DNA from: Marinitoga litoralis
GTDB lineage: Bacteria; Thermotogota; Thermotogae; Petrotogales; Petrotogaceae
Direction: 5' to 3'
Length of the DNA: 53,729 bases
NCBI RefSeq assembly: GCF_016908145.1
Contig: NZ_JAFBDI010000015.1
Span: 1-53,729 of the forward strand
Position numbers and translations under genes: made by a program. Positions 14,523 through 53,541 of the stretch are shown in pieces. Every line of letters starts with the position of its first letter. Position 1 is the first letter of the stretch. The notes beneath the pieces were generated by a model. That model ran no database searches. It was given only the letters and a program-made list of their open reading frames with translations, and was not told the DNA's origin.

Positions 14523-15644
14523 TTAATAATTAGATGGATTGATAAAGTAAATAGCGATTCCAGCAACGCCAGCTAATATTCCTAACCATCCTAAAATATT
14601 TGCTTGGTTAGCTGTTTTTTCTATTTTATTAATTCTAGCTGGATCAATAACTGAATCAGATGTAGCATAATTTGCTAATTGTGATTCTAAATCACTTTTT
14701 GTAACAAAACCGGTTAATTGATCATTCTTTACAAAATTTGATAAATCAGATTTTAAAGCGTAATCGCTTAATTGTTTATTTAAGTATCCAAATGTAACAA
14801 ATTCTTGTAAATCATCTTTTGTTGCATAATTATTTAATTTACCTTCTAATGATTTAACTTTATCAGAATTTGCTGACACTAATAATTCTAAATTACTTAA
14901 TTTTTGTGATAATGCTGTTAATTCTGAAACTTTAGCATAAGCAGATAATTCTGTTTTATCAGCTTTTTTGTTTTCTAAAGCAGCAAATTGTGAATCAAAG
15001 TTTAATGAATTAACTTTTGTTTCTAAAGCAGCCACTTTATTAGCTAAAACACCAATTGTTTCTAAAGCAGCTTTATTAGTAGCAACTTCTGTTTTTAATG
15101 TTGATAAATCATTTGAAAGGTCTTTTAATGTAGATACATTATTTTCTAAAGTAGAAATTCTAGTTTCAAGATTTGATAAAGAATCAACTTTTGAGCTTAA
15201 GAAACTAATTACTTCGTATGCTGCTTTTAATTCATTAACTGATGATTCTAATGCGCTTATTCTGTTATCTAATTCTGTTGTATCAATATTAGATAAAGAA
15301 GCTTTTATCATTGCATCTACTTCAGCTTTTGTTAAACCAGAAGATTTTTTTGATAATTCTTGTAATTGTTTATCAATTGAAACAACTTTTTCTGCTAATG
15401 TAGCAAATAACTGTTGTTCAACATATTTTAATGCTCTATCTAATGCTACTGTAAGTTGATATCTGTTTACTTGAGATAAACCTTGGTAAGTTCCATCTGG
15501 AAAACCTTCAATAATTCCTAATGAGGATAATCTTTCAATTGAATCGAATGCCCAATGATTAACAGGAACATCCTTATAAGTTGTAGCTGCAAAAGAAAAT
15601 ACAGATAATGCTAGTACCGTTAAAATGATTAAAAGTTTTTTCAT
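14523..15644 (-). CDS. SLH-domain coiled-coil envelope protein (Omp-alpha-like)
   Basis: This is a rod protein likely to tether the outer envelope (toga) to the cell wall. The 373 residues show a signal peptide (LLIILTVLALSVFSFA) and one SLH domain right after it (about 22-75: YKDVPVNHWAFDSIERL, then IIEGFPDGTYQG). A long coiled-coil stretch follows (about 85-340), with repeats such as NYATKDDLQEF and ALKSDLSNF. Last comes a hydrophobic segment near 352-368 (LGWLGILAGVAGIAIYF). This is the layout of Thermotoga Omp-alpha. I start at the ATG at 15644 behind GGAGGTG rather than 15 bases upstream. It is monocistronic, with its own promoter and terminator. Confidence 0.88.
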   Translation of the reverse strand: MKKLLIILTVLALSVFSFAATTYKDVPVNHWAFDSIERLSSLGIIEGFPDGTYQGLSQVNRYQLTVALDRALKYVEQQLFATLAEKVVSIDKQLQELSKKSSGLTKAEVDAMIKASLSNIDTTELDNRISALESSVNELKAAYEVISFLSSKVDSLSNLETRISTLENNVSTLKDLSNDLSTLKTEVATNKAALETIGVLANKVAALETKVNSLNFDSQFAALENKKADKTELSAYAKVSELTALSQKLSNLELLVSANSDKVKSLEGKLNNYATKDDLQEFVTFGYLNKQLSDYALKSDLSNFVKNDQLTGFVTKSDLESQLANYATSDSVIDPARINKIEKTANQANILGWLGILAGVAGIAIYFINPSNY

Positions 15645-15679
15645 CCTACACACCTCCAAAAAATTTTAATATTATAATT

Positions 15680-46819: not shown

Positions 46820-48075
46820 AAATAAGTCCAGTTAAAAAAATAAGAGCAAAATTTATTATGCCACCTGATAAATCAATAACTCATAGGGTATTAATTTTAT
46901 CATCTATGGCTAATGATAAGAGTAAATTATATAATTTACTAAATGCAGATGATACTAAAAGAACATATAATATTTTAAAAAGTCTTGGCATAAATTTTAA
47001 AGGTGATTTTAATAAACTAGAAGTATATCCTAAACCTATAAGAGAGATTGAAAAACCACTATATTGTGGAAATTCAGGCACAACAGCTCGTTTAATAAGC
47101 GGATATTTATCCACTCAAAACGGGCTGTTTATTTTATATGGTGATAAATCATTATCAAAAAGACCTATGAAAAGAATAATATTGCCATTAGAATTAATGG
47201 GAGCAAAAATAGAATCTAGAAATGGATATTTACCTTTAATAATTAAAGGTAAAAACTTAAAAGGGATTAAATACACCTTACCAATTCCAAGTGCACAATT
47301 GAAATCTGCTATTATATTAGCGGCTTTAAATAGTGAGGGTAAAACAATTATTAAAGGAGATAAAAATTCTAGAGATCATACAGAAAGACTTATAAAGTAT
47401 ATGAATGGAAATATAGAAATAAAAAATAATGTGATTTCTGTAGAAAAATCAAATTTAGAACCATTGAATTTTAAAGTTCCTGGAGATTTTTCTTCGGCAG
47501 CATTTTTTATTACTTTAGCAATTTTGCATTCTAATGCAAAAATAATAATAGAAAATGTAAATTTAAATCCTACACGTATTGGTTTTTTAAAAATATTAGA
47601 ACAAATGAATGCAAATATTAAATATGAAGTATTTGAAAATGATCCTGAACCTATTGGAAGAGTTATTGCTGAAACTTCTAATGAATTAAAAGGAATAGAA
47701 ATACCTAAGGAATTAATACCAAATGCAATTGATGAATTACCGTTATTAGCTCTTATAGGATTAAATGCAGAAGGTAGGACAATATTAAAAAATGCTAAAG
47801 AATTAAGAGTAAAAGAAAGTGATAGAATAAAAGTCGTAGTTGAAAATTTTAAAGATTTAGGAATAAAAATAGATGAATTAGAAGATGGATTTATAGTAGA
47901 AGGAAAACAAAAAATTACAGGTGGAAAAATAAAAACATATAATGATCATAGGATTGCGATGATGTTTTCTATTTTAGGTTTAATTAGCAAAGAAGGAATA
48001 GATATAGATAATATAAATTATGTAAAAATATCATTTCCAGATTTTTTAAAATATATAGATAATTTGAATAATTAA
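46816..48075 (+). CDS. aroA: 3-phosphoshikimate 1-carboxyvinyltransferase (EPSP synthase)
   Basis: EPSP synthase transfers the enolpyruvyl group of PEP to shikimate-3-phosphate. The 419 residues show PDKSITHR at the N-terminus, GNSGTTARLISG, and the class II marker motifs GDKSLSKRPMKR, PSAQLKSA, SRDHTERL and LNPTRIG. KESDRI and YNDHRIAM near the C-terminus complete the active site. It overlaps aroF, with no ribosome site of its own visible, so translation is coupled. Other shikimate genes are elsewhere. Confidence 0.96.
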   Translation: MKISPVKKIRAKFIMPPDKSITHRVLILSSMANDKSKLYNLLNADDTKRTYNILKSLGINFKGDFNKLEVYPKPIREIEKPLYCGNSGTTARLISGYLSTQNGLFILYGDKSLSKRPMKRIILPLELMGAKIESRNGYLPLIIKGKNLKGIKYTLPIPSAQLKSAIILAALNSEGKTIIKGDKNSRDHTERLIKYMNGNIEIKNNVISVEKSNLEPLNFKVPGDFSSAAFFITLAILHSNAKIIIENVNLNPTRIGFLKILEQMNANIKYEVFENDPEPIGRVIAETSNELKGIEIPKELIPNAIDELPLLALIGLNAEGRTILKNAKELRVKESDRIKVVVENFKDLGIKIDELEDGFIVEGKQKITGGKIKTYNDHRIAMMFSILGLISKEGIDIDNINYVKISFPDFLKYIDNLNN

Positions 48076-48102
48076 TTCTAAGGAATTTTTAAGGGAATAG
48101 TT

Positions 48103-48130
48103 ATATAATTAACTCGTAATATAATTAACT
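48103..48130 (+). promoter_or_regulatory. Tandem direct repeat in the efflux operon promoter
   Basis: ATATAATTAACT occurs at 48103-48114 and again at 48119-48130, a 16-bp period. Each copy contains TATAAT. The first copy is also part of a partial palindrome, AGTTA-N6-TAACT (48099-48114). It sits 22 bp before the first efflux gene and looks like an operator over the promoter. Confidence 0.6.
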
Positions 48131-48151
48131 TAAATAAAGGAGAGTGGAAAA

Positions 48152-49177
48152 ATGAAAAAAGGTATTTTCTTTTTTGTATTGATATTTTTATCTTTAAACA
48201 CTTTTGCATTAAGTACTAGTGAATTATTAGAATTAATTTCTAATAACACTGATTATGTTTTGAATGAATTAAATCATGAAAGCAATATGATAGACTATGA
48301 AAATGCAAAGGTTACAGCAGATAGCACAGCAGCTAAACTAAATCTTCAAAATAATTATTATTCAATTATGAAAAGTTATGAAACTACAAAATATAACTTA
48401 TTAAAAAATTTAATTAACATGCTATTTTCATTAAAAAATGATCAAATAAATATTCAAATTAAGCAATTAAGTTTTGAAAATGCTCAAAAAAATTATGATG
48501 ATTCAAAAAATTTATATGAAAAAAATTTAATTAGTCATTCTAGCTTATTAAATGCTGAGTATAATTTTAAAAATGCACAATACAGTTTAGAAAATGCCAA
48601 AATAACATTAATGAATGATTTTGAAGATTTCAAAACGTTTATTAACTCAGATGATGCTACTATTAATTATGAATTGAAAATTAATTTTCCTGAATTACCT
48701 GTAATAGAAGATATAGAAAAAATAGTAGAAAATGATTACGATTATTTAATTCAAAAAGTATCCTATCAAATAACATTAAATGAGTATAATGCAACAAAAG
48801 AATTTTTAAGTGGCTCAGATTTAAGAAAAAAAGAAATAGATTTAAAAAAGAAAGAATTAAACTTAAATGATTTAAAAGAATCAAAAATAAGAAGTATTAA
48901 ACAACTAATAAATGATATTAATTTGTCAAAATTAGATTTATCAGCATCTTTGATTAACTTAAAATATTTAGAAGAGAATTTAAAAGATACTGAAAAAAGA
49001 TATAATAGCGGATTAATAGAGAAATCACAATTCAATCAAGCGAGGATATCATTTCTTTCAACGGTGATGCAAATAAATAATAAGAGAATGGGATTATTAT
49101 TAAAATATATGGACTTATATAATTATTTAAAAGAAGATATGAATGAAAAAATATTAGAACTCGTTGAATTAAAATGA
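48152..49177 (+). CDS. TolC-like efflux protein, helix-rich, few barrel strands
   Basis: First gene of the efflux operon. The 341 residues have a signal peptide (IFFFVLIFLSLNTFA) and the two-fold helical pattern of outer-membrane efflux proteins, with paired helices such as NAQKNYDDSKNLYEKNLIS and DTEKRYNSGLIEKSQFNQAR, the typical TolC turn motifs. TolC proteins usually have over 400 residues and two pairs of beta strands per half. Here the stretches between helices (near 40-60 and 215-235) are short, polar and helical-looking, so the barrel may be missing. It is followed by a second, fuller TolC-like gene. Start behind GGAGAG. Confidence 0.8.
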   Translation: MKKGIFFFVLIFLSLNTFALSTSELLELISNNTDYVLNELNHESNMIDYENAKVTADSTAAKLNLQNNYYSIMKSYETTKYNLLKNLINMLFSLKNDQINIQIKQLSFENAQKNYDDSKNLYEKNLISHSSLLNAEYNFKNAQYSLENAKITLMNDFEDFKTFINSDDATINYELKINFPELPVIEDIEKIVENDYDYLIQKVSYQITLNEYNATKEFLSGSDLRKKEIDLKKKELNLNDLKESKIRSIKQLINDINLSKLDLSASLINLKYLEENLKDTEKRYNSGLIEKSQFNQARISFLSTVMQINNKRMGLLLKYMDLYNYLKEDMNEKILELVELK

Positions 49178-49187
49178 GGTGTAACTA

Positions 49188-50471
49188 ATGAAAAAAATAA
49201 TGTTGATAATACTATTATTACCAATATTATCTTTTCCAAATTGGTTGGATAATATTAAAAACTATATATATGATGATTCACAATATTTAATTGTTTTAAA
49301 TAATTATAATCAAACAAAAGAAAATTATTTCTTAAAAGAAACATTTTTACCTTCTATTATGATAACAAATGGTAGATACAATTATTCTAAATCAGACACA
49401 TCAGAATCATCATCTATAAATGTTCCTTTAAGAATTAATGCAAAAATCTTTGACTTTGATTTAAGCATAAATAGTAATTTTTCAAATTCACTATGGGACG
49501 ATTGGAGAGATACATATTCATTAACAATTTCAAAAGAAATATTTTCAGAAACTGATGAAGAAATAATTAATGCTAGAATCAATTTATTAAACTCAAAATG
49601 GAATTTTTTAAATACAAAAAATCAATTACTAATTAATTATTTAAATAAGGGATTTAATAATTTTTACTATGGTCAATTATATATGATACAAGAACAGCTT
49701 TTTGAATATCAAAAAGAAGATTATGAGAATAATAAGATAAAATATGAAAATGGAATTATAAGTAAAGTAGAATATTTAAATAGTAAAAAGTCATATTTGA
49801 ATTCTCAAATTATGCTTTTAGATGCAAAAAAGAATTATGAAGATTATAAGGAATACAATGTTGATTATCAAATAATTGATTTAACTGTTCCATCATCTGA
49901 AAATATTTTTAATAGACCCGATGTTATTGCGGAGCAATTAAATGTTGAATTAAAGAAAATGCAAAAAGATAGGATATATAGATTATATATACCAGATATA
50001 AATACAGGTATTACATTTGATTATAATTATCCTGTGCAATCAAATGAAAAGAAATTAACTACTTCTGTATTTGTTAATTTTAATTATAATTTATATGATA
50101 AAGGTTATAGGGAATATCAAGTTGAGCAAATACAAAATAATTTATATATAGCAAAAAAAGATTATGAAGAAAAAATAAATCAATTATTTGATCAATATGA
50201 AAATATGCTGAAAAATCTAAATACTTTAGAATTATCTTTACAAAGTAAAATGTTGGATTTAGAAATAAAGGAATTAAATTATGAAATATATAAGGAAAAA
50301 TATGAAAAAAACATGATTTCTAAAAAGGATTTAGAAGAAAAATATTTAGAATATAAGCAATCAAAATTATCTTTAGAAAAAGTAAAGTTTGATATTTTTG
50401 TTCAAAAATTGAATATATATAGTTTTTTAGGCTATGATTTAATTAGCCTATTTGAGGAGGAATTTAAATGA
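49188..50471 (+). CDS. TolC-like outer membrane efflux protein
   Basis: The 427-residue product has a signal peptide (IMLIILLLPILSFPNW), helical hairpins in two halves (with YENGIISKVEYLNSKKSYL and KYEKNMISKKDLEEKYLEYK), and beta-strand segments between them. The latter are INVPLRINAKIFDFDLSIN in the first half and NTGITFDYNYPV plus TTSVFVNFNYNLYD in the second, as in TolC barrels. It is the probable outer-membrane channel of the operon's tripartite pump. Start behind GAGGTG, 10 bp after the first TolC-like gene; its stop overlaps the next start. Confidence 0.88.
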   Translation: MKKIMLIILLLPILSFPNWLDNIKNYIYDDSQYLIVLNNYNQTKENYFLKETFLPSIMITNGRYNYSKSDTSESSSINVPLRINAKIFDFDLSINSNFSNSLWDDWRDTYSLTISKEIFSETDEEIINARINLLNSKWNFLNTKNQLLINYLNKGFNNFYYGQLYMIQEQLFEYQKEDYENNKIKYENGIISKVEYLNSKKSYLNSQIMLLDAKKNYEDYKEYNVDYQIIDLTVPSSENIFNRPDVIAEQLNVELKKMQKDRIYRLYIPDINTGITFDYNYPVQSNEKKLTTSVFVNFNYNLYDKGYREYQVEQIQNNLYIAKKDYEEKINQLFDQYENMLKNLNTLELSLQSKMLDLEIKELNYEIYKEKYEKNMISKKDLEEKYLEYKQSKLSLEKVKFDIFVQKLNIYSFLGYDLISLFEEEFK

Positions 50472-51667
50472 AAAAATGGATTATATCTATATTAATAATT
50501 GTATTAATAGGGGTATCGATATTTGTTATATTAAATAATAAGAAAAATAATGTAGTTGATACAACTAATAAGTATATAGAATATCCAGTTCAAATAGGAA
50601 GTTTAACTGAAGTTATAGATGTATCTGGTCATATTAAACCTAAGAATTATAGATATATATATCCTCAAGTTTCTGGAAAAGTTGTTGAAATATATAAGAA
50701 AGAAGGAGATTATGTAAAAGAAGGAGAACCTATATTAAAGATAGATGATACAACATTATACATTTCATATTTAAATGCTAAACAGTCATATGAATCTGTA
50801 AAGGGCCAAAATACAATTGATGAAGAGATTAAAAAAGCTCAATATGAAAAAGCTAAAAAAGATTATGAAAATACAGTTATTAAAGCACCAATATCAGGTA
50901 AATTAATAAACTTTAGTGTTGAATTAGGAAATACATTAGGAACAAATACTTTAGTAGGAGTTATTATTGATGATACAAATTATGAATTTATTGGTTATAT
51001 TGATTTGATAGATTATCCAAAAGTAGAAATTGGACAGAATTTAACTTTGACAATAGACGGATATTTTGATAAAGAAATAAAAGGAGTTATAACATATATT
51101 TCTTCAGGTGATTTAACTTCAAATAATGTATCTGTTGCAGAAATAAAAGCTGATTTATTATTAACAGATTCTTCTAATAATATATTTGAAGAAAGTATTG
51201 ACTTAGAAAAAAGTACTGAATCTATATCAACAAGTAATGAGGCAAAAAGAAAAGTATTATCAGAAAAAATAAAAAATATGACTCCAGAACAAATAGCAGA
51301 ATTAAAGAGATCATATGCAAAATCACCTATATTATCAAATAAATCTAATTTAAAAATATTCGCAGGAGTATCTGCTGAGGGACAAATTTTTTCAGTTAAT
51401 GAAGAAAATATTTTGAAAATACCTTTAACTGCAATAATGAGTAAAGATGGAAAAACTTATGTTTTGGTAAAAAAAGGTGTTGATGAAAAAGATAATACTA
51501 TTCCTGAAGAAAGAGAAATAAAGTTGGGAACTATAACTGAAAGTTTTGCAGAAGTTGAAGAAGGATTAAAGGAAGGGGAAATAATATTAATGAAATCAAC
51601 ATCAATATTAAAAAAATCAACTACTTCAACTAAGGGTATTCCAGCGGGAAGAGTTTTAGGTAAATGA
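50468..51667 (+). CDS. MacA-like periplasmic adaptor (membrane fusion protein)
   Basis: The 399-residue adaptor bridges the MacB transporter and the TolC channel. It has an N-terminal membrane anchor (WIISILIIVLIGVSIFVIL) and a lipoyl domain split by a very short helical hairpin (YLNAKQSYESVKG to YEKAKKDYEN). The lipoyl halves are VSGKVVEIYKKEGDYVKEGE and VIKAPISGKLINF. Beta-barrel and membrane-proximal domains follow. Inside the barrel region sits an insert of about 50 charged residues (NMTPEQIAELKRSY). Short hairpins imply a long TolC partner or extra spacer. Start behind GAGGAGG, overlapping the upstream stop. Confidence 0.92.
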   Translation: MKKWIISILIIVLIGVSIFVILNNKKNNVVDTTNKYIEYPVQIGSLTEVIDVSGHIKPKNYRYIYPQVSGKVVEIYKKEGDYVKEGEPILKIDDTTLYISYLNAKQSYESVKGQNTIDEEIKKAQYEKAKKDYENTVIKAPISGKLINFSVELGNTLGTNTLVGVIIDDTNYEFIGYIDLIDYPKVEIGQNLTLTIDGYFDKEIKGVITYISSGDLTSNNVSVAEIKADLLLTDSSNNIFEESIDLEKSTESISTSNEAKRKVLSEKIKNMTPEQIAELKRSYAKSPILSNKSNLKIFAGVSAEGQIFSVNEENILKIPLTAIMSKDGKTYVLVKKGVDEKDNTIPEEREIKLGTITESFAEVEEGLKEGEIILMKSTSILKKSTTSTKGIPAGRVLGK

Positions 51668-51676
51668 GGTGGTTGA

Positions 51677-52363
51677 ATGAGTGATATAGTATTTGAAGTG
51701 AGAGATGTAAAAAAAATATATAATATGGGAGAAGTTAAAGTAAATGCATTGGCAGGAATAAATTTTAAAATAAAAAAAGGTGAATTTGTTATAATTATGG
51801 GACCTTCAGGATCTGGTAAATCTACTACATTACATATTATGGGGTGTTTAGACGTTCCGACATCTGGTGAAGTATATATAGATTCTATTAAGGTTAGTGA
51901 TTTAGATGATAAGAGTTTAGCTAAGGTAAGGCGTGAAAAAATTGGATTTGTATTTCAACAATTTAATCTTTTACCTAGAATGACAGCTTTAGAAAATGTT
52001 GAATTACCTATGATATATAAAGGAGTTCCATCTCATAAAAGAAAAAAAAGAGCTAAAGAATTATTAGAATTAGTTGGATTAGGAGATAGAATACATCATA
52101 AACCTACTCAACTATCTGGAGGGCAAATGCAAAGAGTTGCTATTGCAAGAGCATTAGCTAATAACCCTAGCTATATTTTAGCTGATGAACCAACTGGTAA
52201 TTTAGATACTAAAAGCGGAGAAGAGGTTTTAAAAATATTTAAAAAATTAAATGATGAAGGAATGACTGTCATAATTGTTACTCATGATCCTGAACTTGAA
52301 GAACTTGGAAATCATAACATATTTCTCAGAGATGGTCTTATACAAAAGGAGAGTTATGTATGA
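51677..52363 (+). CDS. MacB-type ABC transporter ATPase
   Basis: The 228-residue ATPase drives the pump. Walker A is GPSGSGKSTT (about 41-50), Q-loop in VFQQFNLLPRM, signature LSGGQMQRVAIARAL, Walker B YILADEPTGNLD, and H-loop VTHD. It belongs to the MacB/LolD group by sequence style. ATPase and permease are separate genes here, unlike E. coli MacB, which is a fusion. Start behind GAGGTGG, 9 bp after the adaptor gene; it overlaps the permease gene by four bases. Confidence 0.97.
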   Translation: MSDIVFEVRDVKKIYNMGEVKVNALAGINFKIKKGEFVIIMGPSGSGKSTTLHIMGCLDVPTSGEVYIDSIKVSDLDDKSLAKVRREKIGFVFQQFNLLPRMTALENVELPMIYKGVPSHKRKKRAKELLELVGLGDRIHHKPTQLSGGQMQRVAIARALANNPSYILADEPTGNLDTKSGEEVLKIFKKLNDEGMTVIIVTHDPELEELGNHNIFLRDGLIQKESYV

Positions 52364-53541
52364 TTATTGAAATGATAAAAGAAGCTTTAAGAGCTCTTTT
52401 TCAAAATAAAATGATATCATTTTTATCTATGTTAGGAATAATTATAGGTGTATTAGCAGTTATAATAGTATTATCTTTAGGTAATGGAGCTACTTATTCA
52501 GTTAAAAGTGAAATAGAATCTATGGGTTCAAATATATTTTTTGTAAATGCAAAAGGCTCTAGATATGCTAAACTTTCTGTAGGTGATTTAGAAGATTTAA
52601 AAATGAATTCTCAATTCTTAACTAATATTACACCTAGTTTTTCCAGTGGGGGTAATTTTAAATATGGAACTAATGAAGTATCAGCTCAATATTATGGTGT
52701 TGTGCCAGATTTTATTAATATGTTTTCTTTAGAAGTAGAAAAAGGTAGAATGATAAATGATATTGATAATAAAGGTGTATTAAAGGTAGCGGTAATTGGA
52801 AGCTCAATTGCAGAACAATTATTTGAGGATGAAGATCCAATAGGAAAAACAATAAAATTATTTAGAAATAAGGGCAGTATTAATTTTACTGTAGTTGGTG
52901 TTGTTAAACCGACAGGTTCAAAATTATTTTTAAATGTAGATAATACAATATTCATTCCATATGAAACAATGAATAAAAGAGTTACAAAGGTTGATGTTGT
53001 TAACCAATTTTTTGCAAAAGCAATTTCAAGTGATTTAAATGAAGAAGCCAAAAACGAACTTGATAATTTTTTATACACAAAATTTAAAGATGAAAGAGCA
53101 TATTTTATTATTAGTCAAGAAGAAATTTTAGGTACAATTAATCAAGTAACAGGAATGCTTAATTTAACATTAGGAGCAATAGCAGGGATTTCTTTACTAG
53201 TTGGTGGTATTGGTATAATGAATATAATGTTAGTATCAGTGACTGAAAGAACAAGGGAAATAGGTATTAAAAAAGCTATAGGAGCAACAAATGGAAATAT
53301 TTTAATGCAATTTTTAACAGAATCTATATTTTTAACGATATCTGCAGGAGCAATAGGTATTTTTCTAGGAATTTATTTTGCAAGATTAATTGGGAAGTTT
53401 ATTAATATAATTCCATATTTTGATATAAATCAAATTATTTTAGCTTTTGTAGTTTCTGGAGCAATTGGATTATTCTTTGGAGTATATCCAGCAATAAAAG
53501 CATCAAAATTAAACCCTGTTGATGCATTAAGATATGAATGA
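52360..53541 (+). CDS. MacB-type ABC transporter permease
   Basis: The 393-residue membrane subunit has the MacB layout: N-terminal helix (SFLSMLGIIIGVLAVIIVLSL), a large periplasmic domain (about 45-265, MacB_PCD type), and three C-terminal FtsX-type helices (from about 270). VGGIGIMNIMLVSVTERTRE is the conserved FtsX segment, and the end reads ASKLNPVDALRYE. With the upstream ATPase, adaptor and TolC-like proteins it completes a tripartite pump for export of lipophilic compounds, peptides or siderophores. It is last in the operon. Confidence 0.96.
   Translation: MIIEMIKEALRALFQNKMISFLSMLGIIIGVLAVIIVLSLGNGATYSVKSEIESMGSNIFFVNAKGSRYAKLSVGDLEDLKMNSQFLTNITPSFSSGGNFKYGTNEVSAQYYGVVPDFINMFSLEVEKGRMINDIDNKGVLKVAVIGSSIAEQLFEDEDPIGKTIKLFRNKGSINFTVVGVVKPTGSKLFLNVDNTIFIPYETMNKRVTKVDVVNQFFAKAISSDLNEEAKNELDNFLYTKFKDERAYFIISQEEILGTINQVTGMLNLTLGAIAGISLLVGGIGIMNIMLVSVTERTREIGIKKAIGATNGNILMQFLTESIFLTISAGAIGIFLGIYFARLIGKFINIIPYFDINQIILAFVVSGAIGLFFGVYPAIKASKLNPVDALRYE

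Follow-up and report, generated by a model that had tools for sequence, protein, structure and literature searches.

The reach of a TolC-type pump is taken as fixed by its adaptor hairpin together with the length of its duct, about one normal periplasm. The MacAB-TolC pump of Escherichia coli consists of a MacB-like ATPase and permease with a periplasmic core domain, a MacA-like adaptor and a TolC-like duct, and it has one TolC. TolC-like proteins are also described in monoderm Firmicutes, one of them with part of the barrel domain missing and a proposed location in the S-layer, and the same paper mentions TolC-like proteins in Thermotogae as well (PMC8809574). In the BesABC system of Borrelia burgdorferi, the adaptor BesA has a nine-residue loop in place of the usual hairpin, with no second TolC nearby, and its authors cannot exclude an unidentified compensating factor (PMC3807786).

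Here we analyse a pump operon in a window of 53,729 nucleotides (the whole stretch of DNA under study) from Marinitoga litoralis. The operon follows the plan of a MacAB-TolC pump and departs from it in two defining features: it encodes two adjoining TolC-type proteins, here called S and O, where a single TolC-type duct would be expected, and its adaptor has the usual domains with a short helical hairpin in place of a long one. S is like the Firmicutes proteins, for example that of Clostridioides difficile, in having a TolC fold, a place in a pump operon and residues missing from the barrel domain; however, the Firmicutes duct stands alone in a cell without an outer membrane (PMC8809574), whereas S occurs beside a barrel-bearing TolC in a phylum of diderm bacteria. 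BesA likewise differs, the short hairpin here being accompanied by a second TolC-type protein (PMC3807786). Barrel-deficient TolC is thus already in print for single-membrane Firmicutes; a search of the open-access PMC literature listed no description of a TolC without a barrel next to a complete one.

Organization of the operon

Five genes on the forward strand, separated by at most 10 bases or overlapping slightly, make up the operon:

48152-49177, + strand: S, 341 aa, helix-only TolC-like protein; Pfam OEP 5.8e-11
49188-50471, + strand: O, 427 aa, TolC-like protein with barrel strands; Pfam OEP 1.3e-25
50468-51667, + strand: MacA-like periplasmic adaptor, 399 aa; RND_mfp TIGR01730 6.5e-31, above cut-off
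51677-52363, + strand: ABC ATPase, MacB type; PF00005 4.7e-35
52360-53541, + strand: MacB-like permease with periplasmic core domain; PF12704 2.6e-42, FtsX (PF02687) 1.3e-21

The combination of an ABC ATPase and a permease with the MacB periplasmic core domain, by which MacAB-type pumps are recognized, is present (PF00005, PF12704 and PF02687), with ATPase and permease encoded by separate genes, unlike in the E. coli system. The top NCBIfam match of the ATPase is MacB (PRK10535, 1.2e-78), under the cut-off of that model. S and O each contain two tandem OEP repeats above the Pfam cut-off, and the original prediction of two TolC-like genes in one pump operon was correct, with exact coordinates. 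Both have hydrophobic N-termini that, read from the sequence, resemble signal peptides. Scans for promoters and terminators around the operon returned nothing above chance. A gene upstream of the operon reads as aroA-like, and the lowest GC content of any 2-kb segment in the window (20.6%, at 48001-50000) covers S and O. At the other end of the window, an open frame at 2-1006, transposase-like by reading, runs off the 5' end.

Structure of protein S

An AlphaFold2 model of S as a single chain, made with an alignment of 19 relatives, has a mean pLDDT of 91.8 and a pTM of 0.84. It consists of two sets of three helices (33-55, 59-123 and 129-164; 196-215, 221-285 and 291-325). Where TolC has its barrel strands, S has two turns:

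48317-48325, + strand: S link 1, residues 56-58; turn joining helices 33-55 and 59-123, at the site of TolC's first barrel strands
48797-48811, + strand: S link 2, residues 216-220; turn joining helices 196-215 and 221-285, at the site of TolC's second strand pair

No strand is predicted at either link, the turns being three and five residues long. The claim that the first protein lacks barrel strands, which a confident prediction of strands would have overturned, therefore stands. The best OEP stretch of S covers only positions 88-177 of the 187 in the Pfam profile. A Foldseek search with the S model gave nothing but outer membrane factors at E < 0.001 (44 chains; best 1wp1_B, E 2.2e-8). With VIA-align, residues 20-341 superimpose on residues 1-420 of TolC in its open form, taken from the AcrABZ pump (9tg4_A; Z 21.4, r.m.s.d. 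3.8, 321 aligned), and about 100 TolC residues, those of the barrel, have no counterpart. S is nearer to this form than to closed TolC (1ek9; Z 17.5, 320 aligned); its best match other than TolC-type ducts has a Z of 10.5. S thus has the long periplasmic helical tunnel and equatorial strap of the family, as does O (Z 21.0). The outer membrane barrel of four strands is not predicted in S, and for this reason S is not classed on its model as an outer membrane factor despite its TolC fold.

Two trivial explanations were considered. A fragment, pseudogene or frameshift was rejected, as the frame has no internal stops and full-length frames of like size occur across the phylum. An alignment artefact was also rejected, as link 1 is gapless in 37 of 39 homologues and link 2 varies by at most one residue. 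S is not a product of decay, because it is found in 53 of 103 genomes and the lengths of its long helices are kept in 38 of the 39 homologues.

Structure of protein O

The AlphaFold2 model of O (mean pLDDT 86.2, pTM 0.76) has strands in two regions:

49353-49538, + strand: strand region 1 of O, residues 56-117; four strands predicted where TolC has two
49995-50084, + strand: strand region 2 of O, residues 270-299; two strands predicted

The predicted strands lie at 56-59/63-68, 73-87, 90-101 and 105-117 in the first region and at 270-280 and 289-299 in the second. This agrees with the original prediction of beta segments in both halves of the second protein, the first half being the less certain, with block pLDDT values of 59-90 across residues 50-120. 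Foldseek and VIA-align both identify O as TolC-like (9tg4_A; Z 21.0, r.m.s.d. 6.4, 376 aligned). Across 36 homologues of O, the first strand region is 64-172 aa long and the second 31-43 aa; the upper value belongs to a single protein (L037, genome G019), in which an inserted charged stretch swells the first region to 172 residues.

Region lengths were also measured between fixed anchors in a joint alignment of S, O, E. coli TolC and CusC. For the first region the lengths are 76-184 residues in O, with a median of 87, and 16-20 in S, compared with 55 in TolC and 56 in CusC. For the second they are 52-64 in O and 19-20 in S, compared with 73 in TolC and 63 in CusC. What O has in excess is apparently an inserted beta hairpin, giving six predicted strands per subunit, with moderate confidence, against four in TolC. 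By arithmetic, three such subunits would have 18 strands and two would have 12.

Conservation of S and O

Conservation was assessed on 39 homologues of S (lowest pairwise identity about 15%), with entropy calculated on 24 non-redundant sequences. The two long helices are nearly constant in length: helix 3 has 65 residues in 38 of the 39 (66 in the other) and helix 7 has 65 in all. The links, measured across the same set, are 11 aa (link 1, with 15 in two rows) and 11-12 aa (link 2). By entropy, the stretch around link 1 (residues 46-66) belongs to the 1.1% least variable contiguous windows of S, and the tips at the opposite end rank at 6-7%. The stretch around link 2 is not unusually conserved (rank 0.274, 27%), and within this link Ser220 is invariant (24/24 non-redundant sequences). 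Because this severed end is conserved above the tunnel wall, the alignment suggests that the top of S may be a contact surface.

The tips were compared using the docking motif of TolC. In S, glycine is found at tip 2 in all 39 homologues and at tip 1 in 23, and Ser/Thr in 32/39 and 35/39. O keeps the motif at tip 2 (Gly 29/36, Ser/Thr 33/36) and has mostly lost it at tip 1, where Ser/Thr is found in 11/36 and glycine in only 10/36. With so little glycine left there, O seems no longer constrained to bind six adaptors of one kind. The pattern is a hint, from alignments, that S may face six like adaptors and O something else. Similarity between tip 1 and tip 2 has a median of 27 in the 39 S proteins and 5 in the 36 O proteins, with E. 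coli TolC at 26 and CusC at 5. The argument that this asymmetry proves O no longer binds adaptors is weakened by CusC, an ordinary single duct with the same score as O.

Co-variation was analysed by a Mantel-type test, controlled for overall divergence, of low power with 22 species. No positive signal was seen in these species between the S top and the O tip (r 0.056, p 0.30), between the two tips (0.061) or between the middles of the two proteins (-0.005), nor for any of the 11 pairs tried.

A short-hairpin adaptor

The adaptor family profile matches MacA structures, and an alignment to MacA (5nik) has a gap that corresponds to the hairpin:

50750-50887, + strand: short adaptor hairpin, residues 95-140; 46 residues

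Between two landmarks, the hairpin spans 40-48 residues (median 46) in 34 operon adaptors, compared with 95 in E. coli MacA, about half the length; a very short hairpin had already been noted at the first inspection of the sequence. At 1.5 angstrom per residue, the arithmetic gives about 3.7 nm of reach lost; by comparison, a 65-residue helix is about 9.7 nm long. Searched against 84 genomes at E 1e-4, the adaptor profile finds almost only operon adaptors and short frames the size of biotin carriers. Two exceptions, adaptor-like proteins of 293-301 aa in family f6, are weakly similar to the operon adaptor (L106:5183-6064 and L107:1595-2500, in genomes G043 and G044), and no TolC-type gene was found in the surrounding stretch examined.

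Distribution of the operon

Matches to S were found in 19 of 38 genomes of the order by a single-sequence search. In profile searches across the phylum (103 genomes), S was detected in 53 genomes, which belong to 27 of 38 genera, and O in 51. Both were present in 50 genomes and neither in 49, so that the pair is kept together in relatives, where a lack of co-occurrence would have spoken against the original prediction. Three genomes have S only (G043, G047 and G064) and one has O only (G086). Contig ends account for G086 and G064; in G047, the rest of the contig after S is taken up by a transposase-like open frame, and the adaptor, ATPase and permease genes lie at an end of a different contig; and the status of G043 rests on an orphan S-like paralogue. 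S, O and the adaptor are present or absent together (103 genomes for S and O, 84 for the adaptor profile). Seven genera (g1, g16, g19, g21, g29, g30 and g35) contain some species with the set and others without S and O, and we therefore infer that the set has repeatedly been lost or transferred as a unit.

Gene order is stable as far as the contigs reach. Among 18 neighbourhoods within the order, O directly follows S in all, and the order S, O, adaptor, ATPase, permease is found in 17, the last stopping inside the ATPase at a contig end. Among 20 further neighbourhoods from the phylum, O follows S in 19 (the exception is G047), with all five genes in 14 and the other six cut by contig ends; G092 has one more complete set. 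No relatives outside the phylum were found in scans of genome contigs, and in plasmids there were only two weak matches, to adaptors.

The Pfam OEP model matches 51 of the 103 genomes, nearly always through S or O; among the named controls, Thermotoga maritima is positive, which together with the gene content points to Thermotogota as the phylum of the window. A few other proteins of this type were seen. Orphan S-like paralogues of 343-345 aa occur in family f6 (L095:1107-2141, L094:6598-7635 and L096:4240-5271); they adjoin neither an O gene nor a pump, and the two checked fall below the Pfam OEP model. Half a TolC, a 208-aa protein with one OEP repeat (PF02321 1.4e-11), lies outside pump operons in G094 (L101:5717-6343). 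Another OEP protein, of 404-412 aa, is found in the genus of the window outside pump genes (L098:5643-6857, L097:6226-7464 and L099:6038-6727), near small proteins with a common LTDDEMKNIIGAG stretch; in the genome that contains the window, it has an open frame of just 229 aa. Finally, a short contig of G047 (C31) has an OEP protein (L100:3805-4995) beside a 1021-aa transporter-like ORF. The GC content of this contig is 45%, against 38-39% in two other contigs of G047, and the gene is possibly a contamination or a transfer.

Width of the envelope

In T. maritima, the coiled coil of OmpA1 is reported to keep the toga about 50 nm off the cytoplasmic membrane (PMC3387000). The window encodes a protein of similar layout:

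14523-15659, - strand: SLH domain and coiled-coil rod; SLH PF00395 3.1e-7

Its SLH domain is followed by about 190-260 residues with a heptad signal and by a hydrophobic C-terminus, the arrangement described for the toga spacer OmpA1/Omp-alpha. Judged from its heptads, the coil would be 28-39 nm long if it were one straight coil. A normal MacAB-TolC pump would not span such an envelope; one ring of S would help and might still fall short.

A proposed four-part conduit

We propose, at even chances, that the operon encodes a four-part conduit of the MacAB-TolC type in which a ring of S sits between the short-hairpin adaptor and O. Three S subunits would assemble as a trimer, their 12 helices making an open-ended tube roughly 10 nm in length. 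At the bottom of this tube, tips of the usual TolC kind would receive six short adaptor hairpins. At the top, the missing strands would leave six helix-turn-helix crowns, and these would sit on the lower rim of O in the way that adaptor hairpins meet TolC in other pumps. O would cross the outer membrane. S would in this way make up for the shorter adaptor hairpin (approximately 3.7 nm) and extend the conduit by several nanometres beyond that, a length that would suit a cell whose outer membrane stands well away from the cytoplasmic membrane. A spacer role for S is the favoured reading because both of its docking tips are kept, its severed top is its best conserved part and a width of about 50 nm is reported for the envelope of T. 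maritima. Against the conduit stand the null result of the low-powered co-variation analysis, the tip score of CusC, which equals the O median, and the unremarkable stretch around link 2. In addition, one S ring of about 10 nm falls short of a gap of 40-50 nm unless rings are stacked or the membranes are closer together at the pumps. Stacking itself, with S as a tube section whose six-fold crowns at both ends would let several rings pile up between adaptor and O and so adjust the conduit to a toga periplasm of 40-50 nm, we consider very unlikely.

The contrast between a strandless S and an O with six predicted strands could also be explained by a mixed trimer, in which two O and one S share a single tunnel, S completing the helices and leaving the barrel to O. 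Two O subunits would supply 12 strands and the three subunits together 12 helices, as in TolC, and the long helix with its turn is near equal in the two proteins (70-72 residues in 35 of 36 O, 65 plus a five-residue turn in S), as packing side by side needs. However, equal helix length is also expected from common descent, and the standard barrel formula allows a 12-helix tunnel to carry an 18-strand barrel built by three O subunits. A mixed trimer also leaves the loss of the tip 1 motif in O unexplained, and we know of no asymmetric 2:1 trimer in the TolC family. On balance this arrangement appears unlikely.

Two further readings take S out of the channel formed by O. S could be a separate duct, an alternative exit ending in the periplasm or in a protein layer while O serves the outer membrane independently. 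The S-layer location proposed for a barrel-deficient TolC beside pump genes in monoderm Firmicutes offers a precedent (PMC8809574), and the orphan S-like paralogues in family f6 have no O; yet S comes and goes together with O and the adaptor and adjoins O in one operon, which points to one machine and makes a separate exit distinctly improbable. Alternatively, S could help O to assemble or to gate, or could form a collar surrounding O and the adaptor, in either case outside the channel wall. A helix-only paralogue could pair transiently with O, and YbjP is an example of how TolC can have lateral partners (PMC13082787). No element of the tunnel wall is missing from S, however, which still has the two tips and the equatorial strap; a helper could do with less, and such a role seems highly improbable.

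With S read as a spacer between adaptor and O, the operon suggests that the length of a conduit can be changed by a separate tube section, because the only recognizable adaptor-plus-TolC pump of the phylum always brings a barrel-less TolC with it. Such a section is a candidate for the kind of answer that the BesA puzzle, an adaptor without a hairpin, calls for. The pair would also be a clean system for tests of tip-to-tip docking, since S, at its severed top, would be expected to act as an adaptor crown does.
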